Assembly (NCBI RefSeq): GCF_030817835.1
Contig: NZ_JAUSZR010000001.1
Span: 4,526,001-4,590,000, forward strand
Source of the DNA: Pseudarthrobacter sp. W1I19
Lineage (GTDB): Bacteria; Actinomycetota; Actinomycetes; Actinomycetales; Micrococcaceae
Direction: 5' to 3'
DNA length: 64,000 nucleotides
Shown: in pieces, positions 9,881-42,470 of the stretch
Position numbering within the stretch: the stretch's first letter is position 1
How the letters are laid out: every line of letters begins with the position of its first letter
Notes under the pieces: model-generated
The model's input: the letters and a program-made list of their open reading frames with translations, nothing else
Databases searched by the model: none
Told to the model about the DNA's origin: nothing
Program-made: the position numbers and the translations under genes

Positions 9881-10090
9881 CCTTCCAAGTTTTCCCCAAC
9901 TGTTGGGAAAGTTATCCACAGTGTTGATAACTTACTGCTGCCACCGGGCCGGAGCCGTGTTGGGGCGCCATGCCGTACCAAATGCGCCAATCGGGCCATT
10001 CGGATGCACTTATTAACAGTGTGGAAGAACTGTGGATAACGGGCAGCCCGTGCTTAACCAAGGGGGCTCAGCGCCGGGGAACCGTGCACT
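9881..10090. promoter_or_regulatory. DnaA-box cluster A (intergenic, 16 kb from dnaA)
   Basis: Two perfect 9-mers are present: TTATCCACA at 9912-9920 and its complement TGTGGATAA at 10031-10039. Each has a partner in inverted orientation with a 1-bp gap or nearby: TTATCCACA-G-TGTTGATAA at 9912-9930 and TTATTAACA-G-TGTGGAAGA at 10010-10028. The same paired arrangement recurs in the next intergenic region. The stretch lies between the ends of two convergent genes, so it is not an ordinary promoter. DnaA binding is inferred from the consensus. Confidence 0.7.
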
Positions 10091-10558: not shown

Positions 10559-11082
10559 TGGATTCTCCTGGTGAAAACACAACGGTGGGGAAAAACTAGC
10601 AGGTGGACAGCCCCGCCGAGGAGCGGGCCGTGAGTCCCTTGCCCCCAGCTTTACACACCCGGCCTGTTGATCTTTTCCACTTACCAACACTGCAATACCC
10701 ACAAGTTATCCACAGCTGTGGAAATGCATGGGGAAATTTAGGCGTAGCGAGCCCCATGGCAGTGGCGTGTGGCTGTTTTTCCTGAAGGGAACTACATGCC
10801 TGTCAGTTATTAACACTGTGCACAAGCCTGTTGAAAGTACCCCGACAAAGGGCTTCCGGCGGCGGAAATCCCCGCTGTGCTTCGCCCTTTTCCACAGAAC
10901 CGTAGTTGGCAGCCGATTTGTCCACTTAAGCACAGGCCTATCCCCAAGAGTTATCCACAGATGTGGATGGAGGAAGGGGATATCCGGGAAAACTCCTGCG
11001 TGCTGGCGGGAAAGGGACCTTTCCCATGTGAACTACAGGCGTGTAAGTTACCAACACTGTGGATAAAGGCTGTGGATAAAGG
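10559..11082. promoter_or_regulatory. DnaA-box cluster B: intergenic array of paired DnaA boxes
   Basis: About 520 bp without a gene apart from the start region of the AhpD-like gene. Perfect DnaA 9-mers lie at 10706-10714, 10951-10959, 11058-11066 and 11071-11079. Most sites occur as head-to-head pairs separated by 1-2 bp: TTATCCACA-GC-TGTGGAAAT (10706), TTATTAACA-C-TGTGCACAA (10807), TTATCCACA-GA-TGTGGATGG (10951), TTACCAACA-C-TGTGGATAA (11048). Weaker single sites are at 10888-10896 and 10918-10926. This exceeds the number of perfect boxes in the dnaA-dnaN gap. I see no ORF with coding character here. Confidence 0.75.
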
Positions 11083-26076: not shown

Positions 26077-26599
26077 GGAAGGGTGCCGCCTTTCATTGCT
26101 GCTGCGTTGGTGTTCGACGAAACTTCCCGCAGGAAGCTCCTCAAGGAGTTGTCCCAGACCTGAACTTGCATGGTCCGTGCTGCCTGAACCACGCGGAAAC
26201 CCAAGGATGGGAGCGCTGCTGACAGCTTAGCCGGAAGATCCGCGATTAACCCATCCCCACTTTGCCGGGCTGGCCCCTTGGGGCCGGCGGCCCCTCCGAG
26301 CGGTGCGGGCGGATCGATCTTGTTGTTTGAGGGACTTCAAATTTTTGGGATTAGTAGTGTTAATAACTGCTGTGGAAACTGTGGATAACTGCCTCCAGCC
26401 GCACGATCCGGCGGTTAAGCCCTGTTCATGGACTGTGGGTGGAGGAGGTTTTAAACAGGGTGTGGATGGGGATAAGAATTTTGGCGTTTTTCGCGATCCA
26501 CAGGCGGCTTAAGGGTTTTAAGCCCATTAACCGCGGTTGTCCCCTTAAGTATCCACAGGCTTATCCACATGCACCTGTTAATAAGGTATAGATGCTTCG
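26077..26599. other. oriC: Chromosomal origin oriC (dnaA-dnaN intergenic region)
   Basis: Actinobacterial oriC lies between dnaA and dnaN, and this gap has the expected content. DnaA boxes: perfect TGTGGATAA at 26380-26388 and TTATCCACA at 26561-26569; close variants at 26371-26379, 26461-26469, 26494-26502 and 26549-26557. The last two near the dnaA end (26549 and 26561) are direct repeats 12 bp apart. AT-rich stretches around 26335-26368 and 26445-26530 could be the unwinding element. The half toward dnaN (26077-26330) is GC-rich and has no boxes that I can see. Confidence 0.88.
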
Positions 26600-28021
26600 T
26601 CAGGAATCGCGCTGCTGTTGCTTAATCCGGTTGGTCAGCTCGGTCACTTGGTTGTAGATCACACGGCGCTCGGCCATCAGCTCACGGATTTTCCGGTCTG
26701 CGTGGATCACGGTGGTGTGGTCGCGGCCGCCAAGTTCCTGGCCGATCTTGGGAAGCGACATATCCGTCAGCTCCCGGCAGAGGTACATGGCGATCTGGCG
26801 TGCGGTGACCAAAGTCCGGGTGCGGGACTTGCTGCAGAGCTCTTCCATGCTGAGCTTGAAGTACTCGGCCGTCTGCTGCAGGATCTGGCTGGACGTGATC
26901 TCCTGGGCGCCGTCGTCGGTGATGAGATCCTTGAGCACCATCTCGGCGAGGGCAACGTCCACGGGCTGGCGGTTGAGGCTTGCGAACGCGGTGACCCTGA
27001 TCAGGGCGCCTTCGAGTTCGCGGATGTTGCTGGAAATCTTGGACGCGATGTACTCGAGCGCGTCGTCGGGAGCGGAAAGTCCTTCACTGAGGGCCTTCTT
27101 GCGGAGGATCGCGATACGGGTTTCCAGTTCCGGTGGCTGGATGTCCGTCAGCAGGCCCCACTCGAAGCGCGACTTCATCCGGTCCTCGAATCCGGCGAGC
27201 AGCTTGGGCGGCTGGTCGGAGGTGATAACCACCTGCTTGTTGTTGTTGTGCAGCGAGTTGAACGTGTGGAAGAACTCCTCCAGCGTCCGGTCCTTGCCGG
27301 CCAGGAACTGGATGTCGTCGATGAGCAGGACGTCCACGTTGCGGTAGGTGGTCTTGAAGCTGGCGCCTTCGTCATCACGGATGGAGTTGATGAAGTCGTT
27401 GGTGAATTCTTCGGAATTGACGTACCGCACGCGGATGCCGCTGTAGAGCCGGCGGGCATAGTGGCCGATGGCGTGCAGGAGGTGGGTCTTGCCCAGTCCC
27501 GAATCGCCGTAAATGAACAGCGGGTTGTAGGCCTTGGCCGGGGCTTCGGCAACAGCGACGGCCGCGGCGTGGGCAAAGCGGTTGGACGAGCCGATCACGA
27601 AGGTGTCAAACACGTACTTGGGGTTCAGCCGCCCGAATTCGTGGGAGGTGCTGGGCAGCATGGGCTGCGGCTTCTGCTCGATCAGCTGGTCCGGCGAGAA
27701 GGAAGGCTCGACGACGGGTTCGGGCTCTTCGTGGATGGGCACCAGATCCGTGTCCACGTCAATGGCACAACGGATGTCCTCGGAGAAGACGCTGTGCAGG
27801 GCATCATCCAGGGCGTCCTTGACCTGGGTCTGAAGCACTTCCCGGGTGAGTTCATTGGGTACTGCCACCAGCAGGGTGGAACCGATCAGGCCCTGGGCCT
27901 GGGCGAGGATGACAAAGCCACGCTGCCGCGGTGAAACGCGGTGGTCCTGTTCCAGCAGGCTGACAACGCGGCGCCAGGAACTTCCGACAGTATTGGCGTG
28001 ATTGGCTTCGTCTACTGTCAT
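26600..28021 (-). CDS. dnaA: Chromosomal replication initiator DnaA
   Basis: 473 residues from ATG at 28021 (GAGGGA 8 nt upstream); a TTG one codon earlier is possible. Domain I (about 1-95), a short linker, domain III AAA+ ATPase with Walker [12 protein letters not shown], Walker [11 protein letters not shown], sensor motifs, and domain IV helix-turn-helix with the DnaA signature around [15 protein letters not shown] that reads DnaA boxes. It opens oriC, which lies just downstream. Its own promoter region also carries DnaA boxes, which suggests autoregulation. Confidence 0.99.
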
Positions 28022-28488
28022 CAATTGGTTCCCTCAAAACTTGCTTTGCCTGCATTGCCTGCAGCCGCAAGCGCGGAACCAGGATCCGGTTCAGCTTCAT
28101 CCACAGGGTTATGCACAGCACGTGGATAATCGGCTACTGGGCCACTCTAGGGGATGAAAAGCCTAGAAGATAGCTGGCAAGTAGCTTGTGGATAATTACA
28201 CCGTTGTGGTTCTGAAAAGGAGCCTGTGAGCCACTTCATCCACAGGCTTCAGGGGCAGGTTTGCCACAGCTGGGGACAACGCCGGCGGCCTGCTTCGGTT
28301 TGACTGGGGGCACTGAATTGCCCTAACGTTGTGAAGTCCTTTGTGTCCGCTTTTTGGCCCCATCTGAAACTCTCAGACGCAGTGCGTGTGAGCAGCCGGG
28401 GGAAGCGTGCATATACAAACTTAGCGTCGGCCAGTTCTTCCCCATACTGATCGGGTGGGCGCACCTTTGATCCACTGGAGTAACTAAC
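28022..28488. promoter_or_regulatory. dnaA-rpmH divergent promoter region with DnaA boxes
   Basis: 467 bp between divergently transcribed dnaA and rpmH. DnaA boxes: perfect TGTGGATAA at 28187-28195, and variants TCATCCACA at 28097-28105 and 28236-28244, TTATGCACA at 28109-28117 and CGTGGATAA at 28121-28129. The first three of the left group are spaced 12 bp apart. A -10-like TATACA lies near 28412 upstream of rpmH. The boxes suggest that DnaA represses or times its own gene; they may also be part of a bipartite origin. Confidence 0.7.
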
Positions 28489-28626
28489 GTGAGCAAGCGG
28501 ACTTTTCAGCCGAATAACCGCCGTCGAGCCAAGAAGCACGGCTTCCGCCTTCGTATGCGTACCCGTGCCGGCCGCGCCATCCTGGCAGCCCGTCGTGGTA
28601 AGGGCCGTACCGAGCTGTCGGCGTAA
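28489..28626 (+). CDS. rpmH: 50S ribosomal protein L34
   Basis: 45 residues from GTG at 28489: [20 protein letters not shown] and the Arg/Lys-rich end [11 protein letters not shown] are the L34 signature. A structural protein of the large ribosomal subunit. First gene of the plus-strand operon rpmH-rnpA-yidD-yidC-jag-rsmG. Confidence 0.99.
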
Positions 28627-28666
28627 ATAACTGACTTGTCGGTAGACATTTCTTTGCGAGTTTAAG

Positions 28667-29074
28667 GTGCTGGCCACCCGCAACCGTTTGAGGACTGCAA
28701 CCGATTTTTCAACAACTGTACGTTCCGGTGTCCGCAATGGACGCCGGAACGTAGTGTTATATGCGGCAGCTATTGCTGCCGACGAACCCAGCCGGATCGG
28801 GTTCATTGTTTCCAAAAGTGTTGGGAACGCTGTGGTCAGGAACCTCGTTAAGAGGAGACTGAGGGAAGCCGGTGCTGCCTCGCTGCGCGAGTACGGTACC
28901 GGGTTCGCCATAGTGGTCAGGGCGCTGCCTGCGTCCGCGTCCGCGAGCTGGGAGCAACTGCTCTCGGACTACAACGCTGCACTGGAGTCGACAATGGCCC
29001 GTCTGACCGGCCGCCCCCGGGCTGCCGCCAACGGTTCGGCCGGTACAACACAGGAGGGGACACCGCGTGCGTAA
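28667..29074 (+). CDS. rnpA: Ribonuclease P protein component
   Basis: 135 residues from GTG at 28667. The RNase P protein core is visible: NRLRTATDF, FIVSKSVGNAVVRNLVKRRLRE (the RNR motif with basic residues). It assists the catalytic RNA in trimming tRNA 5' ends. Forty nt after rpmH and overlapping yidD by 8 nt. The RNA subunit is not in this window. Confidence 0.98.
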   Translation: MLATRNRLRTATDFSTTVRSGVRNGRRNVVLYAAAIAADEPSRIGFIVSKSVGNAVVRNLVKRRLREAGAASLREYGTGFAIVVRALPASASASWEQLLSDYNAALESTMARLTGRPRAAANGSAGTTQEGTPRA

Positions 29075-29459
29075 CGCCACCGCCGTCGTCGCCCATTTAC
29101 ATCCTGTTGTGGCCGCCGTGGCGCTGTTCCTCTGGAACCTGCCCCGCAACATCCTCATTCTTCTGTTGAAGGCCTACCGCAAGGTGGTTTCTCCCTTGTA
29201 CGGCCAGGTCTGCAGATTCTTCCCTTCATGCTCGGCCTATGCCCTTGAAGCGATCACTGTCCATGGTGCCGTCAAGGGAAGCTGGCTTGCTGCGCGCCGC
29301 CTTGCCCGCTGCCATCCATGGAATGCCGGCGGTGTGGACCATGTCCCCGCCGGCCACCGGGAATGGCCTGCCAGCCAGACCCCCACAATTGTTGTGCTGA
29401 ACAACCCGGACAAGTACCTGGCTGCTCGGACTGATGGAGAAGGCCGCACGGCGGCCTGA
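29067..29459 (+). CDS. yidD: Membrane protein insertion efficiency factor YidD
   Basis: 130 residues from GTG at 29067. Family core: LLKAYRKVVSPLYG, CRFFPSCSAYALEAI (paired cysteines), GSWLAARRLARCHPW. An N-terminal amphipathic/hydrophobic segment of about 35 residues is likely to sit on the membrane. YidD helps YidC-dependent insertion of membrane proteins. Overlaps rnpA and precedes yidC by 15 nt. Confidence 0.97.
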   Translation: MRNATAVVAHLHPVVAAVALFLWNLPRNILILLLKAYRKVVSPLYGQVCRFFPSCSAYALEAITVHGAVKGSWLAARRLARCHPWNAGGVDHVPAGHREWPASQTPTIVVLNNPDKYLAARTDGEGRTAA

Positions 29460-29474
29460 CGAATAGGGATAAGT

Positions 29475-30446
29475 ATGGACTTCTTTGAAACAATCATGTT
29501 TCCGTTCAAGTGGCTTGTGTCCGTCATCATGGTGGGCTTCCATGAGGGCTTGAGCGCGATCGGCCTGCCCGAAGCATCGGGCTGGACCTGGACGCTGTCC
29601 ATCATCGGCCTGGTGCTGGTGATCCGCGCCGCCCTGATTCCCGTGTTCGTCAAGCAGATCAAGGCCCAGCGCGGCATGCAGCTGCTGCAGCCTGACTTGA
29701 AGAAGCTGCAGGACAAGTACAAGGGCAAGACAGACCAGCTGTCCCGCCAGGCCATGGCGCAGGAACAGATGGCCATGTACAAGAAGCACGGGACCAACCC
29801 GTTCTCCGCCTGCCTGCCCATGCTGATCCAGATGCCCTTCTTCTTCGCCCTGTTCCAGGTGCTGTCCGGCATCAGTTCCGCCAAGACCCAGGGCAAAGGC
29901 ATCGGTGCCATGAGCCAGGAGCAGGTGGTGCAGTTCGACGAGTCCAGCATTTTCGGAGCTCCGCTGTCTGCCGCACTCCTTCACGGCGGCGCCACCAACG
30001 TGGCCGTCGTGGTCCTCAGCATCGTGATGATCCTGGCCATGACAGCCTCGCAGTTCATCACGCAGAAGCAGATCATGGCCAAGAACATGTCTGAAGAAGC
30101 CATGGCCAGCCCCTTTATGCGCCAGCAGAAGATGATGCTCTACATCCTGCCCATTGTCTTCGGTGTAGGCGGCATCAACTTCCCCATCGGTGTGCTCATC
30201 TACTGGACCACCACCAACCTCTGGACCATGGGCCAGCAGTTCTTTGTCATCCGCCGTATGCCGACGCCGGGATCCCCCGCAGCGAAGGCCCTCGCCGAGC
30301 GCCGTGCCGCCAAGGGCCTTCCGGCCCTTTCGATCCTGAGTGGTAAGAAGGACGACGACGCGGACGCAGCGGCTGCCGCCGCTGCCGTGGCGCAGGCAAA
30401 AGGACAGCGCACACAGCCACAACGCAAGAACAGGAAGAAGAAGTAA
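29475..30446 (+). CDS. yidC: Membrane protein insertase YidC/Oxa1
   Basis: 323 residues. It starts with a membrane segment, then a second helix carrying the conserved Arg of the insertase groove (VIRAALIPVFVKQIKAQRGM), a cytosolic coiled loop (LQPDLKKLQDKYKGK), and three further helices. The C-terminus is basic and Ala-rich (RTQPQRKNRKKK), a ribosome-binding type tail. It inserts proteins into the membrane alone or with SecYEG. Its TAA overlaps the jag ATG (TAATG). Confidence 0.98.
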   Translation: MDFFETIMFPFKWLVSVIMVGFHEGLSAIGLPEASGWTWTLSIIGLVLVIRAALIPVFVKQIKAQRGMQLLQPDLKKLQDKYKGKTDQLSRQAMAQEQMAMYKKHGTNPFSACLPMLIQMPFFFALFQVLSGISSAKTQGKGIGAMSQEQVVQFDESSIFGAPLSAALLHGGATNVAVVVLSIVMILAMTASQFITQKQIMAKNMSEEAMASPFMRQQKMMLYILPIVFGVGGINFPIGVLIYWTTTNLWTMGQQFFVIRRMPTPGSPAAKALAERRAAKGLPALSILSGKKDDDADAAAAAAAVAQAKGQRTQPQRKNRKKK

Positions 30447-31012
30447 TGTCAGCCGAGAGTACCGAACAGGCCCTTTCTGAAGTGACTGTCGACGAGCAGG
30501 ACGAGTCCTTGGACCAGGATGTTTCCTCCCCCAAGGCTTCCTCAGCCAGCCGCCTGGAGGAAGAAGGCGACGTCGCAGCGGACTACCTCGAGGAGCTGCT
30601 GGACATTGCAGATATCGACGGCGACATCGACATCGAGGTCCGCAACGGACGCACTTACATCTCCATCGTTACCGAGGAGGAATCGGACAGCCTCGACAGC
30701 CTGGTGGGCGAGGACGGCGAAGTCCTTGAAGCCCTGCAGGAACTGACCCGCCTCGCCGTGCTGTCCGCCACGGAAAACCGTTCGCGCCTAGTGCTGGATA
30801 TCAACGGCTACCGGCAGGAGCGCACTGGCCACCTGCAGAAAATTGCTGAGGATGCGGCCGCCACTGTAAAGGAAACCGGCCAGGCAGTTGCCCTGAAACC
30901 GATGAGTGCTTACGAACGCAAGATCGTCCACGACGCCGTTGCCGACCTCGGCCTGGTGAGCGAGTCCGAGGGCGAAGGTGCCGGCCGCCATATCGTTGTT
31001 TCCGCGGACTAG
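30446..31012 (+). CDS. jag: Jag/KhpB-like RNA-binding protein (KH-R3H)
   Basis: 188 residues. An acidic N-terminus of about 45 residues, a KH-like domain (about 50-125, with YLEELLDIADIDGDI and LVLDINGYRQ), and a C-terminal R3H-type segment (LKPMSAYERKIVHDAVADL). Such proteins bind single-stranded RNA, often with KhpA, and influence division and cell-wall genes. Translationally coupled to yidC. Confidence 0.94.
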   Translation: MSAESTEQALSEVTVDEQDESLDQDVSSPKASSASRLEEEGDVAADYLEELLDIADIDGDIDIEVRNGRTYISIVTEEESDSLDSLVGEDGEVLEALQELTRLAVLSATENRSRLVLDINGYRQERTGHLQKIAEDAAATVKETGQAVALKPMSAYERKIVHDAVADLGLVSESEGEGAGRHIVVSAD

Positions 31013-31033
31013 AGAATTGCTGATTCGCTGATC

Positions 31034-31684
31034 ATGGTTGACATCACGCCAGCTGAGCTTCTGGCAGCTGAGAAGATTTTCGGTGACCGCCTGGACCTCG
31101 CTAAGCGTTACGTGGAACACCTCGCCACCTCCGGAACTGAGCGCGGGCTGATTGGCCCCCGCGAGATCCCCCGGCTCTGGAGCCGCCATGTCCTGAACTG
31201 TGCGGTCATTGAAAGTGCGATAGCCCACGGCAGCCACGTGGCGGACGTCGGAAGCGGGGCCGGACTCCCGGGCCTGTGCCTCGCTATCGCGCGCCCGGAC
31301 CTGGAACTGACCCTGATCGAGCCGCTGGAACGCCGGGTGATCTGGCTTCAGGAAGTGGTGGATGACCTGGGCCTGGAGAATGTCACGGTGATGCGCACCC
31401 GCGCCGAGCTGGCAGTGGGACACGTGGACGCCGATGTTGTGACCGCGCGTGCTGTTTCTGCCCTGAGCAACCTTGCCGGCCTCACCATCCCCCTGCTCGC
31501 AGGCAAGGGCGAAGTGGTTGCCATCAAAGGCCGCAGCGCGGGCGAGGAAATCGAGAAGGCGGCTAAGGTCATCCGGAAGCTGGGCGGTGTGGAGACATCC
31601 GTCCTGACGGTTGGCGATAACCTGCTGGAGGAGCCCACCACCGTGGTACGCATCGTTGTAAACAAGTCCCAAAAGAAGTCCTAG
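31034..31684 (+). CDS. rsmG: 16S rRNA (guanine527-N7)-methyltransferase RsmG
   Basis: 216 residues. SAM-binding motif VADVGSGAGLPGLCLAI, then LIEPLERRVIWLQEV, and VVTARAVSALSNL, all RsmG signatures. It methylates G527 of 16S rRNA; loss of the enzyme gives low-level streptomycin resistance in other bacteria. Ends the rpmH-rsmG block, just ahead of parA. Confidence 0.98.
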   Translation: MVDITPAELLAAEKIFGDRLDLAKRYVEHLATSGTERGLIGPREIPRLWSRHVLNCAVIESAIAHGSHVADVGSGAGLPGLCLAIARPDLELTLIEPLERRVIWLQEVVDDLGLENVTVMRTRAELAVGHVDADVVTARAVSALSNLAGLTIPLLAGKGEVVAIKGRSAGEEIEKAAKVIRKLGGVETSVLTVGDNLLEEPTTVVRIVVNKSQKKS

Positions 31685-31773
31685 TGTTGGCCCGGCAGCC
31701 GCAGTCTGCCGGAGTAAGCAGTTAGGCTAGTCAACGGCAGCAAAATTAGCTGAACGAGAGTGAGTGTGCCCCA

Positions 31774-32841
31774 GTGACCAGTAGCGAAGCCTCCACACAA
31801 CGGATACCCCCGTTTGTGTCTCTGGGGTCAGCACGTTCTTTCGCTGGGACTGTCTCGGGCGCCTCCGGTGTACTCGGAAATCAACCTGGTGCGGTATCAA
31901 GCTCTTCTCCGGTGTTCGTTTCACGTGAAACAACCTCCACAAGTAGGGGGAACATCATCGACGCCATTGATGATTCCAGTCCCATTGCCCGTGAACTGGC
32001 GCATGAGACCCGCCGGCGCGAGCGGTTGGTGGGCCGGCAGTTGCCGCGCCCGGAGAAAACGCGCATCTTCACGGTTTCCAATCAAAAGGGCGGGGTGGGG
32101 AAGACCACTACCACCGTTAACATCGCTGCGGCCCTCGCAGCAGCCGGACTGAACGTCCTGGTCATCGACATTGACCCCCAGGGCAATGCGTCCACCGCGT
32201 TGGGCATCGAACACCACGCTGATGTGGACAGCATCTATGATGTCCTGATCAATGACGTGCCCTTGGCCGACGTGGTGGCCCAGTGCCCGGACATCGGAAA
32301 TCTCATCTGTGCGCCGGCCACCATCCACCTGGCCGGGGCCGAAATTGAACTGGTGTCCCTGGTGGCGCGTGAGCAGCGGCTCCGCAGGGCTATTGATGTT
32401 TATGCCAAGGCCCGCGAGAAAAATGGCGAACAGCGCCTGGACTACATCTTTATCGACTGCCCGCCGAGCCTTGGCCTTCTGACAGTCAATGCATTCTGTG
32501 CAGCCAACGAAGTGCTCATTCCCATCCAGTGCGAGTACTACGCGCTGGAAGGCTTGAGCCAGTTGCTCAAGAACATTGAGATGATCCAAAAGCATCTCAA
32601 CGCGGACCTTGTGGTTTCCACCATTCTGCTCACCATGTATGACGGCCGCACCAACCTTGCTGCGCAGGTAGCCGCCGAGGTCCGTCAGCATTTCCCGGAA
32701 CAGGTCTTGGCCGCAGTGGTACCGCGTTCGGTACGCATTTCGGAGGCGCCGAGCTACCAGCAGACTGTAATGACTTACGACCCCTCATCCAGTGGCGCCC
32801 TGTCCTACCTGGAAGCTGCTGCTGAAATAGCAGAACGCTAA
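31774..32841 (+). CDS. parA: Chromosome partitioning ATPase ParA (Soj)
   Basis: 355 residues from GTG at 31774. The deviant Walker A KGGVGKTTTT lies at about residue 106, after an N-terminal extension of roughly 95 residues. Walker A', VIDIDPQGN and FIDCPPSLG, are present. ParA forms ATP-dependent gradients on the nucleoid that pull ParB-parS complexes. The extension contains the codons for FVSRETT, which are dictated by a perfect parS site, and is Ser-rich and poorly conserved, so the true start could be further in. Followed by parB after 66 nt. Confidence 0.97.
   Translation: MTSSEASTQRIPPFVSLGSARSFAGTVSGASGVLGNQPGAVSSSSPVFVSRETTSTSRGNIIDAIDDSSPIARELAHETRRRERLVGRQLPRPEKTRIFTVSNQKGGVGKTTTTVNIAAALAAAGLNVLVIDIDPQGNASTALGIEHHADVDSIYDVLINDVPLADVVAQCPDIGNLICAPATIHLAGAEIELVSLVAREQRLRRAIDVYAKAREKNGEQRLDYIFIDCPPSLGLLTVNAFCAANEVLIPIQCEYYALEGLSQLLKNIEMIQKHLNADLVVSTILLTMYDGRTNLAAQVAAEVRQHFPEQVLAAVVPRSVRISEAPSYQQTVMTYDPSSSGALSYLEAAAEIAER
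31918..31931. other. parS: parS site 1 (inside parA)
   Basis: Perfect palindrome GTTTCACGTGAAAC, the ParB-binding consensus, in the coding sequence of the ParA N-terminal extension (reads VSRET). Confidence 0.93.
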
Positions 32842-32907
32842 AATCTTCAAGAACTGCAACAACTGGAGCCCGGCTGGACCTGGCTCTTCCACTGGAGGGA
32901 TTTATCC

Positions 32908-34221
32908 ATGAGCGAGAAGCGACGGGGCCTAGGCCGCGGTCTTGGCGCACTGATTCCGAGTTCCGCCGGTGCTAATGGGGCGGGCAACGGAACAGCTGCA
33001 GCGCGCCCCGTCGATCTCTTCTTTCCCGAGGGGCGCCGCAAGACCGATCCCGCCGAGTCTGTTGTGGATTCGGCGCCGGTGGAAGAGTTCGATGCCGGCA
33101 CCGCTGCCGGTACCTCTTCTGTTGAGTTGCCGGATGCGGTGTCGAAGGGATCATCTTCCACATCCTCGGGCAACGGCTCACGCAAGCCCGCAGCCGCAAA
33201 GTCCTCCACTGCAAAGAGCGCAAGCCCCGATGGGCCCGCTACGAAATCCAATGCCAGTTCAAACGGTAGCGGCAATGCCACGGCGGCCAAGAAGGCTGCC
33301 GACGCGACTGAAGTTCCCAGTGACAAGCCGGAGGTTCGTGGTGGCCAATCCCTCGAGTCTGTGGCAATTCCTGAGACGGACAACGGTGTTGACCTGGTAG
33401 AGGTCCCTGGCGTCCGCTTTGCCGAGATCCGGGTAACGGACATCCACCCGAACCGCAAACAGCCCCGTTCCGTCTTCGATGAAGACGACATGGCTGAGCT
33501 GGTTCACTCTGTGCGTGAAATCGGCGTCCTCCAGCCAATTGTGGTGCGGAACTCAACCGAACCCGGTGGAGAGCCGTTTGAGCTCGTTATGGGTGAACGC
33601 CGTTGGCGTGCAGTGCAGGCCGCTGGACTGGAAACCATCCCGGCAATAGTCCGGGACACCACTGACGATGACCTCCTGCGTGACGCACTTCTCGAAAACC
33701 TGCACCGCAGCCAGCTGAACCCCTTGGAAGAGGCGGCGGCCTACCAGCAGCTCCTCGAAGACTTCGGCACCACGCACGAGCAACTTGCAGACCGCATTGG
33801 CCGGTCACGCCCGCAGGTCTCCAATACCCTGCGCCTGCTGAAGCTGCCTCCCCTTGTCCAGCGCCGCGTTGCTGCAGGTGTACTCTCCGCTGGCCACGCA
33901 CGCGCCCTCCTGGCCCTCCCAGACGCCGCAGCGATGGAACGACTGGCCCAGCGTATTGTCGCTGAGGGGATGTCGGTGCGGGCCACCGAAGAGGCCGTCA
34001 CCATGTACCAGGATCCGGCGAAGCCTGCCAAGAACAACATTCCGCGTCCAGGCGCGCGTCACGAGCGTCTTGACTATCTCGCTTCTTCGCTTTCGGACCG
34101 CTTGGATACCAACGTCAAGATTTCGCTGGGAGTCCGCAAGGGCCGGGTCAGCATTGAATTCGCCAGCGTTGAAGACCTCAACCGGATCATGGATGTCCTG
34201 GCACCCGGAGCGGAAAACTAA
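32908..34221 (+). CDS. parB: Chromosome partitioning protein ParB (CTPase)
   Basis: 437 residues. A basic start [14 protein letters not shown], a disordered Ser/Ala-rich linker (about 35-150), the N-terminal CTP-binding/sliding domain with [13 protein letters not shown] and [14 protein letters not shown], the helix-turn-helix DNA-binding domain ([19 protein letters not shown]) that reads parS, and a C-terminal dimerisation domain. It loads at parS, spreads as a CTP-driven clamp and recruits ParA and SMC. The linker is longer than in many ParBs. The parS sites follow directly downstream. Confidence 0.98.
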
Positions 34222-34604
34222 CAAGAGTTTGCGCGGAGTGGTTGCTTGGCCGTTTATACGCCTCTGGCTCACTCTGCATGCTGCGTATCTGGGTGCTCTT
34301 GAATCTTGAACGGTGGCGATTCGTTCGCGGTGGGTGTGAAGGCGCCTAAAAGTTGACGAGCAGTTCTCTTAGTTGCAGCGTGGAACGGTGGGTGCATCGG
34401 CTCCGCGTTGGCTCCGTTTCCGGCTTACTTCAGAGCCTTCTTTTACCCTACTGAGCTAGAAGAAGCGGCTTTCCTGTACTGCGCTAAGCTAGCTGGCTCA
34501 GGCCGGGTCCGTCTCGACTGATCGTGTCAGAAGTGCTGCCTTTCGTTCCTCGGTTTGGTTTGCCCTCTGCAGGTGTACGCCTCGGAAGCTCGCGGTGGGT
34601 CTTC

Positions 34605-34618
34605 GTTTCACGTGAAAC
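34605..34618. other. parS: parS site 2
   Basis: Perfect GTTTCACGTGAAAC palindrome, about 380 bp after the parB stop. Confidence 0.95.
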
Positions 34619-35277
34619 AGGTGGGCCGTTTGCTGCGCAAAGCCTTGTATCACTAGCGTTCTGTCGATGCAGACTGATGAAAAAGCACCCTTCCGTGGTC
34701 TTTGCAGGCGCCGGTTAGGCTCGATTGCGCTCGTTCTCCTCCCGCTGGTTCCGAAACAGGTAGCTCGAAGGATCGGACGAGTGTGCCGGATCTGATAGGA
34801 GATCCAAAGGCGAGGAGACAGACTCTATAGCTCTGCAGAAGGCCTTGCGGTACATAATTGTGCTTCCGTACCCGTAGAGGCAGTGCATTCCACCGTACTA
34901 AGAGCGTCCTTCGTGGAGACGATGTGCCAGTGTGGACGAGAGCTACATCTAACGCGAAACGTCAGAGTATTCGCGATGCATCCCCTAGAACCGTACGGCT
35001 GCAGTGGCCTGTTACGCCTAGGGGCGCAGCTCTCCTTGCCCACTCCCCGACCTACCGCTTGTCGGATGGCCTACTGTTGTTCGGGCGTCGCTTTCTGGCC
35101 CTTCGTGAGACCGTAATAGAACGACAACGTGATAGGTGCCTCGTGAGGTCAACGTGCGTCAGCAAGAACTCGTACGCATATCGGCAATCACTGCCAGGGC
35201 CGATTCGGGATCGCCGATCTGATCGTTTCGGATGCAAGAATGAGCTTCAGCTCTCCGACCGAAGGGGCCCGGCGAGC

Positions 35278-35291
35278 GTTTCACGTGAAAC
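35278..35291. other. parS: parS site 3
   Basis: Perfect GTTTCACGTGAAAC palindrome, 673 bp from the previous site. Confidence 0.95.
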
Positions 35292-35934
35292 GACTCCTAT
35301 GAATTCACGCCCCACGCCTGACGCCTTGGCGTTCAAGATTTCAGCGGCCTCTCATGAAGCTCCCTGAATCGTCGTAGAACGATTTCCCACGGAAGCACCA
35401 ATCTGCTTATCAAAGGAGAGACTCGAACCAAACGGGCCAGGCTGGTGCCGCCGCTCGATCGGCTCGGCTCGGCAAAACTAAAGGTCACTGGTTGTCGTAG
35501 TGATCCGACCAGACCGGCGGAAGCGGGAGCCCAAGGTGTCGCTCGATTCGTATGAATAGACCTGCCTTCTCCAGCGGGATGGAAGAAGGCGGGGTTTCTG
35601 GATCTAGTTGGTCGCATCGTCACCAAGCAGTTGATCCAGAGCATTCCGCGCCCTGGATCGGAAATTCGTTGTCAGTGCTAAAGCTGAGCACTACGGCAGC
35701 CAAGTTTCGAGGGATTGCTGGATACCGGTCAGCAAGAGCGTACTTGACGAGCGGACGCTGCTGTACCAACGGAATGGTGCTAAAAGTGGAGGACGCCGTG
35801 GCCGACCACCGCACCCTCCCCTACTGAACATCCGAGCCAAGACACAGCAACATGGTCCCTGACGTTCCTTGCGTCGCGGGATGCCTACTACCGGTGCTGG
35901 TGCTGGCCGTGCCTGGCTCAACGGGCCCAGTTCC

Positions 35935-35948
35935 GTTTCACGTGAAAC
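35935..35948. other. parS: parS site 4
   Basis: Perfect GTTTCACGTGAAAC palindrome, 657 bp from the previous site. Confidence 0.95.
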
Positions 35949-36505
35949 ATGATCAAGTCGACTACGCCTGGTTCTGCCGGTCCAACTGCTTGAGGGGCTC
36001 AAAGGAGTGCAAACGGCAACTTCCCTGGTCGCCCACCGGCTTGGGTGGTACGACCCTTTTCGCCTTCGCCGTTGAGGACCGCGCACACGGTGGCCGGCCT
36101 GGAATCAGATGATGCTGTCGGAGACCTTCCGGTTGAGTGGCTTCGTGCCCCGTTAGTGCTGGTGATGTATTTCTTGGCCACGGAGCGGAGCGTGGATAGT
36201 GCCAGCCGTGGTGCGCCGAGGTCAATACGGCTGATGATGGCCTCGCGCGGTATGCGCACTGGCAGCGGCGTGGCGTTCCTTCTGATGTCGTGTAGAGATT
36301 CTTGGTTGGCAGTTTGACCGGCCTAATAGGCCAGTAGGCACTGCTGAGCGTGGGACGCAAGACGCTTTGCATCTTGAGTGTCGGACTCCGGAGGCGGACA
36401 ATACTGCCCATCCGCTGTCCCCAAGGTGACAACGGTTGCCTCGCCGAGAGGCAGATGAAGGGGAGCGAATCGATTTGGGAGACCATGTTCAGCGACCTGA
36501 CAGCC

Positions 36506-36538
36506 GGTGGATAAAGCTGTGGATAACGGTGTGGACAA
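36506..36538. promoter_or_regulatory. Triple DnaA-box repeat with 12-bp phase
   Basis: GGTGGATAA (36506), TGTGGATAA (36518) and TGTGGACAA (36530) are three direct repeats exactly 12 bp apart; the latter two are perfect E. coli-type and Streptomyces/mycobacterium-type DnaA boxes. The group is about 100 bp from parS site 5. Confidence 0.75.
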
Positions 36539-36634
36539 CCTGGCTCCTTCATGTGGATGTGACAGACTTCTCAGCCCCCCGCACCGCCCGTGCATCCAGC
36601 CCGCCAGCCAGAAGACCCATTCGTACCCACGCGT

Positions 36635-36648
36635 GTTTCACGTGAAAC
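36635..36648. other. parS: parS site 5
   Basis: Perfect GTTTCACGTGAAAC palindrome, 700 bp from the previous site. It is the central site of the array and lies between two DnaA-box groups. Confidence 0.95.
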
Positions 36649-36872
36649 GAGCTGAGGATCCGCAACCGAAAAGTTGGATCGGCGCAGGCGGCACCGAAAG
36701 AGGGCCAAAACTCACAGGTTTTGGTTTAATTCCGGCTGGTCCGACCAAAGCTAGGCGTTTGCCACCGCTCCGGTGCAGCGTTGGACCTCGCTGAACACGC
36801 CAGCTTCGAACTTCGGCCAACGCAATGTCTCATCTGTGTTCTCTAATGCTGTCACCGGTCCGCCTAGCACGC

Positions 36873-36916
36873 TGTGGATAACTATGTGGACAAGCGCGCA
36901 GGGAGCCTGTGTATAA
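36873..36916. promoter_or_regulatory. DnaA-box pair plus variant, 12-bp phase
   Basis: TGTGGATAA (36873-36881) and TGTGGACAA (36885-36893) are perfect boxes 12 bp apart in the same orientation; TGTGTATAA at 36908-36916 differs by one base. Same strand and spacing as the group at 36506. Confidence 0.72.
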
Positions 36917-37717
36917 CGTGGGGAAAACCCAGGCTCCGCCTGGTGGTTCCTGCTCAGAGCTGCGTGTACTTTGCAGCACTACGCGAAGACTCGTGGGCAG
37001 GACTATGTGACTACTGTGTTGCCCCGGGATCGCTGACTCGGCCTATGCACGTGACGAGGATGGTCGAAATAGAGTCGGACTGTTCTCAGGCTGGCCCCTG
37101 GCCATGGCGCATTGCCAGGCCCGGCCGCGGTGAAGTCATGTGCCGGTTCATCGTGACACCCTTCCCAATCAAGGGCAACGGGAGACGTAGGAGGTTGGCG
37201 CAACCGTCCTTTGCGCCTGCTCGGATGCCAGCAGTATGCTTGTGACCTTGTTCAGGAATGAGCCAGCCATCCCAAGAAGAAGCTGCGGCTGATCCGTCCG
37301 AATGGTGTGAGATGGAGAAGAGGTACAGGTGATGATCGTCTCGGCGGTCTTAGCCGTGCGCGCATAGGCTTACAGTGGACTGGTGCGGGGTGCATGGGCG
37401 TCTGATCCCTTTTGGGCTTTTTCTGGTGTGGAGGCGACTGATGGAACCGCAAATGACTATTTGCTCGGGTCGGCGCCGCGAGAAGGCTAACCCGGTCTCG
37501 TTCGACGACCAGAGAGCAAGGAAGGCCGCTTCGGTAGTCGGGCAACGAAGCCACGAACCAGTAGCCGTGCCGAAGGTGTCTGAGGAGCTTAGTTGGTACA
37601 CAAGCTTCAGGGGGCTGCTACATCGGACAGCGATGTGGGGAGCGACCACTGAAGTCCAAGATCCTGGAGCTGCGCGGGTGCGTAGGGGTTCCTTTCTGCC
37701 GGCCATATTCCTGGCAT

Positions 37718-37731
37718 GTTTCACGTGAAAC
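37718..37731. other. parS: parS site 6
   Basis: Perfect GTTTCACGTGAAAC palindrome. The 1083-bp gap to the previous site is the only long interval in the array. Confidence 0.95.
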
Positions 37732-38398
37732 GGCGCCAAAGGCCGTCGTGCTTTTAGGCGTACCTCTTCGTTCGTTTCAGGCCGTACCAAGAATCGTGGG
37801 CCGCAGGCGGCGGAGGATTTGGCGCGCCCGCTCGATCACTAGGCCCGCCTTGGTCCCTGACACAAGTTGAGCCGTCTTCAAAGCAGACCTTTGGGGTCTT
37901 AGCAGAGACAGGTGTTCAGGTATTACCTTGATTACCGAATGGCGGGGCATTGATCCATCGCTGCGAATAGTCGCGACACGGTGAGCGGTCATTTTGCTGA
38001 ACTGCGCCTAACCGGATAGAAGGTCGCGTCTGCTCCCGCCTTGAACCAGCTGGCAGTAGCTGACAGGAAAGGCTACCGTGATTGCCCGGAATAGTGTCCG
38101 GAGCCCAGATACACGGTCCCCCTCATCCTCGCGAATCCCACTTGCGGCTGGGGAGTGTTGCCTCTGGATTGTTCTTGTGCGGTCGTCTTCTGGGCCTTGG
38201 GCGCTCGAGCATAGCAACGCGTCCGATTCACGCCCCCGAAGTCCTTCTCAAGCTACATCGTCGGCGCAACGCCATGCCTTGTTTCTGGCGCTGAACATCG
38301 TGTAGGTCAGCACACCGGATGTTCTAAATACTGCGAGTAGCCTAGGCGCCTGCACTTTTCGAGTTACGGCATTGAAGAGGGAGGTGACCCCGGTTCCT

Positions 38399-38412
38399 GT
38401 TTCACGTGAAAC
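38399..38412. other. parS: parS site 7
   Basis: Perfect GTTTCACGTGAAAC palindrome in the full 16-bp form TGTTTCACGTGAAACA, 681 bp from the previous site. Confidence 0.95.
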
Positions 38413-38611
38413 ATGACCGAGGCTCGCAGCTGGAATCAGTTAGGGCTATTGGCACGGAATTGCTCAACCCGCTTCGGGGTCTTTTTACGCCATCAATCAC
38501 GACGCGCCTCCGAGCGGCTGCATTCGAACGTGCGCTTGAACTCGACTGTTGTTTCTCGGAAGCGTGCTCGTTTGGCAGCGGCGAGGTGATCAACCTCCAA
38601 GGAAACCATCG

Positions 38612-38680
38612 GCGCCGGTCACCTTCGAGATCGACGGCGAGGAATACACCGCCGAGATCACTGGTGGCCCCATCGACTGA
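38612..38680 (+). pseudogene. Possible gene remnant
   Basis: A stretch reading APVTFEIDGEEYTAEITGGP ending in ID and a stop has protein-like composition and regular codons, unlike its surroundings. Upstream in the same frame it degenerates into Arg/Pro-rich sequence with no start or RBS. It looks like the last third of a small protein gene whose 5' part has decayed or been rearranged. I do not recognise the family. Confidence 0.35.
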
Positions 38681-39062
38681 ATACAAACCTACGAATCCGA
38701 TTCCCCACCAGCACTATGAACTCCCGCATCAATTCTGCCAGCGCTGGCACTCGCCCCGGCCGTGACGGCTGCAGTGCAGCTTCGATCACCTTGCCAGGTG
38801 CAGTCGGCGATGTCCTGAGCAAGCGACCCACCTCTCCTATATTCAGCTACTTTTTGGACGCGATAAGTGGAAGCGCGGCAAAAGATAATCTTGGCCAACC
38901 GAATCTGGATTTGAACAGATTCCGTCGCCCACGGTTAAGCCTTGGTTCGAAAGACAAATGGATAACGCTGCTTCGGCTAACCCTCCTGATTCTGTCCATC
39001 GATGTGGTTCGCCTCTGAGAGACCTGTAGCCCCCGCTACTTTAGTTGCTGCGAAAGGTGTGT

Positions 39063-39076
39063 GTTTCACGTGAAAC
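39063..39076. other. parS: parS site 8
   Basis: Perfect GTTTCACGTGAAAC palindrome, 664 bp from the previous site and about 170 bp before the trxA terminator. Confidence 0.95.
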
Positions 39077-39242
39077 GAAGTTACGTGCCCATCCGAAGGT
39101 TCCGAATTGAGAGTGAACGCGAGCTGAGTAGGCCAAACATATATGAGGCTACTTTGGGTCCCCTGTAGCCTCAAAGGGCCATAATGCAGCAATTATTAAG
39201 CTAGAACTGATCGCACCACCCAGAATCCAACCTACTGGGAAC

Positions 39243-39278
39243 AAAAAAGTGGCCATTGCCCACATGAGCAATGGCCAC
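39243..39278 (-). terminator. Rho-independent terminator of trxA
   Basis: On the minus strand GTGGCCATTGC, an 8-nt loop and GCAATGGCCAC form a perfect 11-bp stem followed by TTTTTT. It lies 37 nt after the trxA stop and marks the border of the gene-free parS region. Confidence 0.95.
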
Positions 39279-39315
39279 CCGATACGCTCGCTGGTCCCCC
39301 AACAAGCGCTATTTG

Positions 39316-39642
39316 CTAGGACAGTACGTCAGCGAATTCCTTCTCAAAGAACTGCTTCGGCTTTGCGCCGATAACCGTGCTCTTCACTTCGCCACCCTGG
39401 AAAAGGTAGACGGCAGGAATGGAGGTGATTCCGTATTCGGCTGCGATAGCGGGGTTGTCGTCAACGTTCAGCTTTACGACATCAACCTTCTCGCTGTACT
39501 CAACCGAGATTTCGTCGAGGATAGGGCCGAGCTTGCGGCAAGGACCGCACCATTCTGCCCAAAAATCAACGATAACCGGCTTGTCAGAGGACAGGACGTC
39601 CGTGCCAAAACTTGCATCTGTTACATCTTTTGCGTTGCTCAT
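39316..39642 (-). CDS. trxA: Thioredoxin
   Basis: 108 residues. Classical active site FWAEWCGPCRKL, followed by the cis-proline region ITSIPAVYLFQGG. Small cytosolic disulfide reductant, reduced by the thioredoxin reductase encoded 33 nt upstream in the same operon. Ends at a perfect terminator. Confidence 0.98.
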   Translation of the reverse strand: MSNAKDVTDASFGTDVLSSDKPVIVDFWAEWCGPCRKLGPILDEISVEYSEKVDVVKLNVDDNPAIAAEYGITSIPAVYLFQGGEVKSTVIGAKPKQFFEKEFADVLS

Positions 39643-39675
39643 AATCTGTCTCTCTCTTCGATGGCGTTTACGGAC

Positions 39676-40632
39676 TTAGGCGTGCAGGTCTGCGAGGTAG
39701 TGCTCCACGTCAATGGCAGCGACACAGCCCGAACCCGACGCGGTAATGGCCTGGCGGTAGGTGGGGTCTACAACGTCGCCTGCGGCAAAGACACCCGGCA
39801 GGCTCGTCTTGGAACTCCGCCCTTGAACGGCGATGGTGCCCTCGGGCGTCAACTCCAGTACGTCCTTCACCAAGTCGGTTCGGGGGTCATTTCCGATAGC
39901 CACGAACACACCCGTGACCGCAAGATCAGACACTGAGCCGTCAAGAAGGTTCTTCAACTTCAGGCCGGTGACTTTGTTTTCACCGATGACATCCTCAACG
40001 GTGCTGTTCCAGATGAAGTTGATCTTCTCGTGCGCCAGCGCCCTGTCGGCCATGATCTTGGATGCCTTGAGCGAATCGCGGCGGTGGACAACCGTTACCG
40101 ATTTAGCGAACTTGGTGAGGAACAGAGCTTCTTCCATGGCGGAGTCTCCCCCACCGATGACAGCAATGTCCTGGTCCTTGAAGAAGAAACCGTCACAGGT
40201 TGCACACCAGCTAACACCGTGTCCTGAAAGCCGCTTCTCATTGGGAAGGCCAAGCTCACGGTAGGCGGAGCCCGTGGAGAGAATCACTGCCTTGGCCTGG
40301 AAAGTTTCACCCGTGGCGATGGTGACCTGCTTGACGGGTCCTTCCAGCTGGAGAGACGTCACGTCTTCGAACTGGATCTCCGTGCCGAAGCGTGCTGCCT
40401 GCTTCTCGAAGTTCTCCATCAGGTCGGGTCCCATGATGCCCTCCGGGAAGCCCGGGTAATTCTCCACATCGGTGGTGTTCATTAGTTCACCGCCGGCGGT
40501 AACGGAACCTGCCAGCAAAAGGGGCTTCAGGTTGGCCCGGGCAGTGTAGACAGCTGCCGTGTAACCAGCGGGGCCGGAGCCGACGATGATGACATCACGT
40601 ACATCCGACGTGGTGTTTTCTGCGATGGTCAC
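39676..40632 (-). CDS. trxB: Thioredoxin-disulfide reductase
   Basis: 318 residues from GTG at 40632, just before [21 protein letters not shown], the FAD-binding motif; GAGG lies rather far (11 nt) upstream, and the longer open frame to 40692 has no better signal. Redox centre CATC in [17 protein letters not shown] motif [12 protein letters not shown], and the C-terminal FAD site [16 protein letters not shown]. Reduces TrxA with NADPH. Same trxB-trxA order near murJ as in mycobacteria and streptomycetes. Confidence 0.97.
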
Positions 40633-40806
40633 TGAACGGTGAACCTCTTCCTTATTAGACGCGCCCCGCCTTGGAGGCCGGCCACATGGCACAACTGATA
40701 CTGCTGGCTGAATATTCCGGCGCCCAACATGATGGATTTCCGGCAGGCAGCAGCAAGCCGGCTCCGTGAGGCGCTCTTTCCAGATTACCGTCTCGCGGCA
40801 AAAGGA

Positions 40807-40843
40807 AAGTGCCGCAGCCCGATGACTATGGACTGCGGCACTT
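40807..40843 (-). terminator. Rho-independent terminator after the pseudokinase-like gene
   Basis: AAGTGCCGCAG and CTGCGGCACTT form a perfect 11-bp stem with a 15-nt loop; the minus strand continues TCCTTTTG. It separates the murJ-side genes from trxB. Confidence 0.85.
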
Positions 40844-40886
40844 CAATAGATAGGTCTAAGAGAAATCCTGCGGGGTGGATCCGGCG

Positions 40887-42470
40887 TTACTGTACCTTGA
40901 TCTCGGCGAGCCGGAGGCCGTATCCATAACGTGTCTTCGGAGCCGCCAACCGGGGCAGCGAATTGATCGACACAATCACATACTGCGCCTGAACTGGCTC
41001 GGCCAGGGGGATGTTCAGATCCGTGGAGGTGAAGCTGTTCGTGCCGACAGCCTTGGCCCCGTCGATCGAGGGCCGGTCGTTGGTGTATACGGTGATGTTT
41101 CCACCGGAGCCGCCGAGCTGGGAAAGCGTGATCGACGAGACGGTGGCAGGGCTCTTCAACTTCACAACGAGCGGAACACCCTCGGGTGCGAGTCCGCCCC
41201 AGTTCTCAGTGGCAAATTCCATGTCGGACCAGTAGCTGGCGGCGTTGCCGTCGTAAGCCTTCACCAAATCGCGGTCGAACGTGGCGGCGAAGTCGAAGTT
41301 ACCCTGGCGGGTGACTCCTTCAATGGCCGGCGGGACAGCAGGGGGTGCAGAGGTAGGTGCCTGGGTTGCGGTGGCGTTCGCAGAGGGAGCGCTGTTGTTG
41401 GTGCTGGCCGCCGTCGGCTTAGCCTGCGGCTGTGTAGAAAAGAGGCTGCCAAGGTTGGTTACGGCAAACACCAGGCCGGCAATCAGGACCACTGCGAGGA
41501 GCCCGCCCACAAGCCAACGCATGGAGCGCGGTTCACGTTTCGGGGCATCCCGGTCGCCGTCATCATCCTGATCGCCGTAAGAAGCACCCGCAGCGGCACC
41601 TGCAGCAGCGGCCGGGGCTGCGGACCGTGCAAAGACCGGAGACTTCTTTTTGGCCGGCCGCGGCTCTTCTTCTGCCGGCGCATCCTCGTACGGGTCCTGG
41701 TCATCGACGTTCGCGTAGTCGTCCTCGGACCACAGGGAGACCTTCGGCTTCCCGGATCCGGACGCGGACGGGGAGACGAAGTCCTGGTCCTGGTCTGAAG
41801 CGCTCGACGGGAAGCTGGCGGTCGCCGGCTCCTCGGACTGAACCGCGGGCCTGGTGGCCGGACCCGAAACGCCCGATGAAGCGGCGCCGGCAGCGGCACC
41901 AGCCGCCGCACCACCCAACAGAGAGGAGCCGGAGGGCTTGCGTCCAGCGGCGGGGGCCGCCGACGGCCGTGCCGGCGGCTTTGGCGGCATTGCGGGCGCA
42001 GAAGCGTAAGGATCAACCTGGCTGCGATGCCCGTCCGAGTAGTTGATGTAGCCGGCGTCGACGTTCTCTTCGTCGTCATAGGGCTCGGGTTCGCGGGACC
42101 GGGGCTGACCAAAAATCTCGCTCCCCAAGGTGTCCGTGAAGAACGGTTCCACATAGGGAGGGTTGGAGGCCACCACGAGATCCAGCAGGTCAGCGGCGGA
42201 TGTGTGGTTGGTGATGAGGTACGTTGCGGCAGCTGTGACACCAAGGTCCAATACCTGGACTGTGCCGGGGCGCTCCCCGGTGGCAACCTCGCGGGCGCTT
42301 TGGGCAACCTGCTCGGTGTTGTCGGGTCCGGCAACCAGGATGCTGACCGGACGGTTCAGTACCTGGTCCACACCATCCAGCACCAGATCGTGGTCGTGCG
42401 AGGCCAATACGGTGGCTGTGACCTTGTAACGGCCGCCCAGTACTGATCCGACATCGATCGGGTTGGACAC
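40887..42470 (-). CDS. Membrane protein with pseudokinase-like N-terminus and discoidin-like extracellular domain
   Basis: 527 residues. Residues 1-110 resemble the N-lobe of a Ser/Thr kinase (GSVLGGRYKVTATV, VSILVAG) but lack the catalytic loop, so this would be a pseudokinase. A disordered Ala/Pro/acidic segment (115-315) contains short Tyr/Asp motifs, one transmembrane helix spans about 319-338, and the C-terminal 145 residues resemble a galactose-binding/F5-8C domain (AYDGNAASYW, YGYGLRLAEIKVQ). Mycobacterial MviN carries a pseudokinase, a TM helix and an extracellular sugar-binding domain fused behind MurJ; here the same parts appear as a separate gene just after murJ. Role in regulating lipid II flipping is inferred from that. 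Confidence 0.8.
   Translation of the reverse strand: MSNPIDVGSVLGGRYKVTATVLASHDHDLVLDGVDQVLNRPVSILVAGPDNTEQVAQSAREVATGERPGTVQVLDLGVTAAATYLITNHTSAADLLDLVVASNPPYVEPFFTDTLGSEIFGQPRSREPEPYDDEENVDAGYINYSDGHRSQVDPYASAPAMPPKPPARPSAAPAAGRKPSGSSLLGGAAAGAAAGAASSGVSGPATRPAVQSEEPATASFPSSASDQDQDFVSPSASGSGKPKVSLWSEDDYANVDDQDPYEDAPAEEEPRPAKKKSPVFARSAAPAAAAGAAAGASYGDQDDDGDRDAPKREPRSMRWLVGGLLAVVLIAGLVFAVTNLGSLFSTQPQAKPTAASTNNSAPSANATATQAPTSAPPAVPPAIEGVTRQGNFDFAATFDRDLVKAYDGNAASYWSDMEFATENWGGLAPEGVPLVVKLKSPATVSSITLSQLGGSGGNITVYTNDRPSIDGAKAVGTNSFTSTDLNIPLAEPVQAQYVIVSINSLPRLAAPKTRYGYGLRLAEIKVQ

Follow-up and report, generated by a model that had tools for sequence, protein, structure and literature searches.

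What is maintained by selection in a centromere whose sites are spread over five kilobases without a gene? The question is raised by a 64,000-nucleotide stretch of the Pseudarthrobacter sp. W1I19 chromosome (contig NZ_JAUSZR010000001.1, positions 4,526,001 to 4,590,000; the window hereafter), in which seven copies of the parS palindrome follow the partition genes parA and parB. We present here a comparison of this locus with those of its relatives. The arrangement of sites makes it fairly likely that the interval is a ParABS centromere whose gene-free track includes a DnaA-binding module, which probably couples initiation to segregation or holds DnaA near oriC.

The parS array and its gene-free gap

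Eight perfect copies of parS, GTTTCACGTGAAAC, are present in the window, one in parA and seven downstream of parB (Table 1). This recount agrees exactly with the initial annotation, as do the distance of 2687 bp from the parA copy to the first array site and the array intervals of 673, 657, 700, 1083, 681, and 664 bp. Allowing up to three mismatches adds one match, with two mismatches, and nine parS-like matches were reached in none of 100 shuffles of the window. No perfect parS is found elsewhere in the 4.81-Mb genome; all eight lie between the start of parA and trxA, with dnaA and dnaN 4 to 7 kb left of parA. By Pfam, parA and parB are ordinary (AAA_31 in ParA; ParB_N, HTH_ParB, and ParB_C in ParB; all above cut-off). 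ParB has a single GxxRxxA motif, GERRWRA, a motif with a role in CTP binding. The locus has the attributes of a ParABS centromere: perfect parS sites clustered near oriC and parAB, a ParA ATPase, and a ParB with ParB_N, HTH, and C-terminal domains.

The gap between parB and trxA is 5,094 bp long. The initial annotation reported no supportable gene in it, which all four analyses bear out, and ended it at 39242, which is too early; the gap runs to the trxA stop at 39316. None of its 23 open reading frames (ORFs) of at least 70 aa reaches the codon-usage score attained by 95% of 40 training genes. Because this codon model is crude (genes have a median of 0.18 per codon and a 5th percentile of 0.01), GC content by codon position and Pfam were added. 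In gap ORFs of at least 100 aa, third-position minus second-position GC (GC3-GC2) does not exceed 0.09, which is the 5th percentile for genes (gene median 0.32). Eight gap ORFs gave no Pfam match above cut-off and two weak ones below it, and Rfam gave no match in 28000-41000.

For comparison, the gap was collected from relatives that are mainly the nearest by parB, with some skipped, chosen from the 204 in the genus that gave a parB match. Seventy-five of the 77 taken were used together with the window (76 gaps); L135 and L190 were excluded, as their pieces contain no trxA. Wider checks used a whole-genome pattern search of 204 genomes drawn from the genus and 80 named ParB loci among the matches listed. 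The gap is 3,961 to 8,169 bp long in all 76 loci (median, 5,292 bp) and contains 5 to 11 perfect parS. In total, 405,310 bp of gap sequence contain 592 perfect sites, 55 that differ at one position, and 8 that differ at two, and 60 control palindromes gave no perfect match in the same DNA. Of the one-mismatch sites, 21 are a single variant, GTTTCACGTGGAAC, which may be a functional or ancestral form. Perfect parS is present in 149 of 150 genus genomes, and 78 of 78 genus loci, including the window, have exactly one perfect copy ahead of the parB stop, between -2094 and -2343. Downstream of parB, trxA is found on the opposite strand at 71 of the 80 named loci among the matches listed.

Large non-coding gaps are unusual in dense genomes, and this one might be taken for the remains of decayed genes or for an artifact of assembly or annotation. 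That explanation is scarcely credible here: the same flanks and elements recur in 76 of 76 loci, the gap is also found in named Arthrobacter, Pseudarthrobacter, and Paenarthrobacter records, and Pfam detects no remnant above cut-off in the eight window ORFs tested. Few gaps contain gene-like inserts, and those that could be identified are mobile elements. In genus gaps these are an IS21-type insert in L139 and an IS4/5-type fragment in L156; at named loci, L007 has an integrase-core transposase and L020 a DDE transposase match below threshold.

Sequence and spacing between the sites

In the comparison that the initial annotation proposed, parS sites are kept among relatives while the sequence between them drifts. 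The nearest relative, genome G123 (locus L111), has parB DNA 91% identical to that of the window, and the flanks of the gap align at 93 to 95% over about 34 kb on the left and 24 kb on the right. Within the gap, the sole alignment longer than 150 bp (E 1e-10) is 36502-36978, at 67%. A laxer search adds short pieces, mostly at both gap ends and at parS, including the last 80 bp before trxA, which are 86% identical. Six of the seven array sites fall on perfect parS in L111, and one is without a counterpart. Plain identity over the whole gap (0.70) is uninformative, since shuffling yields the same value; for this reason, apparent gap identities of about 0.70 in the close-pair comparison also say little. 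The alignment score was instead calibrated by simulation. The observed score of 530 lies between those simulated at identities of 0.55 (353) and 0.60 (653), with shuffles at -147, and gap identity is accordingly between 0.55 and 0.60, or about 58%. Between the same two genomes, identity is 0.79 at four-fold synonymous sites and 0.81 to 0.98 in seven other intergenic stretches.

Close pairs behave similarly. Divergence is 4.2% in the gap versus 2.1% at four-fold sites for L136/L137, 8.5% versus 4.6% for L116/L117, and 11.4% versus 6.7% for L121/L126. L129 and L146 have nine of nine parS positions in common at 80% gap identity, and L116 and L117, with nine and seven sites, have seven in common at 92%. 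The DNA between parS sites evolves faster than four-fold synonymous sites while the parS sites persist.

The initial annotation read the regular intervals, most of them near 675 to 700 bp, as suggesting a selected architecture, perhaps set by the sliding or bridging of ParB clamps. The window is indeed even, with a coefficient of variation (CV) of 0.205 (p = 0.0009 versus uniform placement of seven sites in the gap), but no other of the 76 gaps is as even, and after that choice this p value is weak. L166 and L124 are among several others that show fair evenness at longer intervals. Of the 76 p values, whose median is 0.20, 21 fall below 0.05 and not one is above 0.95. After thinning to 53 gaps with pairwise four-fold identities under 0.70, in which kin stand in for the window, p values depart from uniform toward evenness (Kolmogorov-Smirnov p 8e-7). 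Evenness is found mostly in the 36 gaps with the first parS at least 200 bp after parB (median p 0.04); the other 40, with the first parS less than 200 bp after parB, are less even (median p 0.34). A genus-wide avoidance of parS clumping may be real.

A selected period is nevertheless improbable. The 516 intervals of the 76 gaps have a median of 658 bp, a 5 to 95% range of 73 to 1522 bp, and extremes of below 50 and above 2000 bp, and they show no peak at 650 to 710 bp (4.7% of intervals). The L111 intervals of 1549, 675, 1090, 683, and 700 bp resemble those of the window (673 + 657, 700, 1083, 681, and 664 bp), a likeness that can be shared descent, since parB DNA places L111 and L112 closest to the window. 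Other lineages keep inherited layouts of their own, e.g., 25, ~760, ~1050, ~2400, ~3500, and ~3560 bp with a pair 63 to 64 bp apart. This pair is nearly base-exact in L119, L121, L122, L125, L126, L129, L130, L139, and L146, while their other intervals drift. In an indel random-walk test on eight close pairs, some of which share a genome, the ratio of net squared change to summed squared indels was 1.23 pooled (0.33 to 2.12 in single pairs), compared with 1.16 to 1.60 in neutral simulations; intervals with a net or root-summed-square change of at least 200 bp were excluded. Interval lengths match a neutral random walk, and therefore distances drift and sites are inherited.

Regular spacing as the main selected feature was rejected on the comparison of CV with random placement, the interval distribution, and the random walk, which leave the genus-wide evenness over. 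Even spacing is mostly particular to the window's lineage, and a selected period of about 675 bp is not supported. What stands of the initial account is a parS array in a gene-free centromere, with evenness as a property of this window; regular spacing as a design, kept among relatives, does not, as layouts differ between lineages and lengths drift in close pairs.

The DnaA-box module

The initial annotation had the parS sites right and missed two clusters of DnaA boxes among them. When the gap DNA was searched in 98 other genomes, 60 of them congeneric, matches were obtained in 7, five of them at 36502-36555. Cluster A lies at this position, and clusters A and B flank the core parS at 36635. 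The box, read as TGTGGATAA, is present in every one of the 76 gaps; 177 copies lie on the parB strand and one on the opposite strand, whereas 200 permuted 9-mers have a mean of 1.1 and a largest count of 9 on both strands together. Outside the gaps, 838,666 bp of the same loci contain 2 boxes, many pieces stopping short of dnaA. When one mismatch is allowed, every gap has exactly two clusters, 320 to 417 bp apart from start to start (median, 348 bp), and a 12-bp step between boxes is found in 74. A parS lies 80 to 140 bp after a perfect box in 66 of the 76 gaps, at 115 to 118 bp in 47 of 71 such pairs. In the genus-wide search, the box-parS composite was found in 155 of 204 genomes and its reversed control in 0 of 204. 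A perfect box also follows parB in 26 of the 80 named loci among the matches listed (Arthrobacter, Pseudarthrobacter, Paenarthrobacter, and Sinomonas by name), and its reverse in none. DnaA boxes at a centromere, as in Caulobacter, are thus present as two clusters in all 76 gaps.

The module is also a non-coding DnaA-box cluster outside oriC, and Escherichia coli datA, DARS1, and DARS2 contain DnaA boxes. The clusters could in that case be a titration, inactivation, or reactivation element sharing the gene-free space, with parS a neighbor and not a partner. The constancy of two same-strand clusters in all gaps would suit such an element, as would the ten gaps in which the neighboring parS is missing and the proximity of oriC, through which the module would be doubled early. 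The tight box-parS distance, held despite drifting surroundings, argues against it, and we consider it an unlikely though serious alternative.

A pair of DnaA clusters separated by an AT-rich stretch also recalls a replication origin, main or secondary; GC content dips to 0.47-0.48 at +50 to +100 from the core parS. In the 53 thinned gaps, no change in leading-strand skew was found at the module by GC or TA skew. Mean GC skew on the parB strand (1.5 kb) is positive on both sides, at 0.021 left (positive in 40 of 53) and 0.048 right (46 of 53), and TA skew is equal on both sides (0.071 and 0.071). GC skew is higher right of the module than left, with its sign unchanged; this difference (p 0.0004 at 1.5 kb) leaves a little room for minor initiation. 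Coding-strand skew at four-fold sites is about -0.11 to -0.12 in parA and parB (+ strand) and -0.26 and -0.31 in trxA and trxB (- strand); parA and parB are therefore less C-rich at these sites, which fits forks passing from the dnaA side. With no sign change across the module, an origin here is disfavored and very improbable.

A helical phasing of box-parS distances (peaks near 106, 117, and 128 bp) was considered and dropped, because boxes repeat every 12 bp and shift register. Downstream of the core parS, a short AT-rich motif, GGTTTAATT, was read by eye and left uncounted at 36723..36731 (+); over 66 aligned cores, the consensus after the core parS is gGtt.atTt, which occurs in many genomes.

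The module is about 8 to 10 kb from intergenic DnaA boxes beside dnaA. These lie on both sides of dnaA, at 26080-26596 and 28028-28480, some at 12-bp steps, in what is likely the oriC region; this region differs sharply from the parS gap in being 97 to 98% identical to G123. A third group of six perfect and two near boxes occupies intergenic stretches at 9912-11079, surrounding a carboxymuconolactone-decarboxylase-like gene (10091-10702) between methyladenine glycosylase and rhomboid genes.

Table 1. Features of the partition locus in the window and inserts in the gaps of relatives
Feature	Coordinates	Strand	Evidence or remark
parA (AAA_31 / CbiA P-loop ATPase)	31774..32841	+	Pfam PF13614, E 2.4e-56
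parS copy in 5' part of parA	31918..31931	+	Perfect match
parB (ParB_N, HTH_ParB, ParB_C; motif GERRWRA)	32908..34221	+	Pfam
Gene-free, fast-evolving spacer carrying parS array	34222..39315	.	Coding signal absent; homologous gap in 76/76 loci
parS 1	34605..34618	+	Perfect match; aligned to perfect parS in nearest relative, L111
parS 2	35278..35291	+	Perfect match; no counterpart in L111
parS 3	35935..35948	+	Perfect match; counterpart in L111
DnaA-box cluster A (boxes 36506, 36518, 36530)	36506..36538	-	12-bp steps; middle box perfect; TGTGGATAA on + strand
parS 4 (core parS)	36635..36648	+	117 bp after perfect box of cluster A; counterpart in L111
DnaA-box cluster B (boxes 36873, 36885, 36908)	36873..36916	-	Box 36873 perfect
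parS 5	37718..37731	+	Perfect match; counterpart in L111
parS 6	38399..38412	+	Perfect match; counterpart in L111
parS 7	39063..39076	+	Perfect match; counterpart in L111
trxA (thioredoxin), right border of spacer	39316..39642	-	Pfam PF00085, E 9.1e-29
IS21-type pair insert	L139:6800-9123		parS gap of relative
IS4/5-type transposase fragment	L156:9088-9714		parS gap of relative
Integrase-core transposase	L007:13434-14432		parS gap of relative
Weak DDE transposase match	L020:19208-19831		parS gap of relative

A centromere with a putative DnaA link

From the observed sites, their conservation, orientation, and drift, we infer ParB binding, DnaA binding, and a coupling of initiation to segregation. 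ParB would load at about eight perfect parS and spread along the gene-free track, which would spare the ParB complex collisions with transcription. Selection would keep the parS sequence, a rough number of sites, the absence of host genes, and a central DnaA-binding module of two same-strand clusters, mostly in 12-bp steps and usually flanking one parS. The DNA between these elements would be nearly unconstrained, and distances between parS sites would be inherited and then drift. DnaA, through its cell-cycle level or nucleotide state, may influence the ParB-parS complex and so tie segregation to initiation, as proposed for Caulobacter.

Related systems share parts of this arrangement. Corynebacterium glutamicum, also an actinobacterium with ParABS and a parS cluster near oriC, has ten parS, nine of them intergenic, in one 35-kb cluster among genes, 73 kb from oriC (PMC7083940); the window differs in placing seven in one 5-kb gene-free gap beside parB and in having a DnaA module, which the covered portion of PMC7083940 does not mention. 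ParB in a C. glutamicum strain with a single parS is most concentrated within 2 kb of that site and extends as far as 16 kb (PMC7083940). In Caulobacter crescentus, the parS region is bound by DnaA, which has been proposed to set segregation in motion (Mera et al. 2014, via PMC6399470), and DnaA boxes there are likewise at the centromere, about 8 kb from the origin (PMC6399470). Caulobacter differs in being an alphaproteobacterium described as using one main parS (PMC6399470) and in that DnaA binding was shown there, while here it is predicted from sites; the boxes of the window, unlike those of Caulobacter, are arranged as two clusters on one strand within gene-free DNA that evolves fast. In rctA/parS2 of Vibrio cholerae chromosome II, centromere and initiator-binding sites are also interleaved, but the initiator is RctB, not DnaA, and the chromosome is a secondary one (PMC6399470). 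E. coli datA, DARS1, and DARS2 are likewise non-coding regions outside oriC acting on DnaA (PMC4585315); they are unlinked to parS, in a species named as lacking a ParABS system (PMC7083940), whereas here boxes adjoin parS in most genomes.

Several observations weigh against a centromere with a dedicated DnaA partner on a selected track. Ten of the 76 gaps have no parS 80 to 140 bp after a perfect box and 49 of the 204 genomes lack the exact composite, so that a parS beside the module is usual, not obligatory. In a family sample, the composite occurs in 20 of 24 genomes of the genus and in 4 of 271 others, of which three belong to one genus and the fourth to another; the module hardly extends beyond the genus, and ParABS therefore works without it elsewhere. 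Among the 80 named ParB loci in the matches listed, 54 lack a perfect box downstream of parB. Rothia, Kocuria, Glutamicibacter, and cellulomonads are among them, but so are some records named Arthrobacter (e.g., L022, L025, and L053) and one named Paenarthrobacter (L027); some of the 54, such as L042 and L053, retain a parS gap without an ORF passing the GC3 measure. The gaps are not uniformly free of coding signal: 11 ORFs in 8 of 76 exceed the codon threshold (1 in shuffled sequence), six of these (71 to 97 aa, in six gaps) have no Pfam match and are not otherwise excluded, and a 219-aa ORF in L020 has no assignment. Gap length differences are within what drift might give, by a rough hand estimate, and deletions exceed insertions mildly (179:116 events in seven triples sharing sequences), which do not show selection on gap length. 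The putative action of DnaA at parS is argued by analogy. Proteins bound tightly to DNA can stop ParB from sliding, but according to modeling, short-lived blocks would matter little (PMC10387095), which weakens the argument from transcription collisions.

A more specific form of the preferred reading is correspondingly tentative: DnaA on the two same-strand clusters around one parS may gate ParB loading or release for the whole centromere, with the 5 kb as a gene-free, sequence-indifferent ParB track, in a dedicated replication-segregation coupling of this actinobacterial lineage. Among the literature matches listed, seen mostly at the level of title and abstract, there was no account of this array or of DnaA boxes at an Arthrobacter centromere. 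The component parts are of known kinds; their combination, its genus-wide regularity, and the pattern of drift are new.

Fast drift around fixed short elements lets functional motifs stand out with little background. Natural evolution has here acted as mutagenesis, separating what the centromere apparently needs (the parS sequence, a rough number of sites, gene-free surroundings, and, in this lineage, the DnaA module) from what it does not (the sequence and exact length between sites). The element is small and well delimited, and it provides a second, independent lineage beside Caulobacter in which the link between DnaA and the centromere may be tested.

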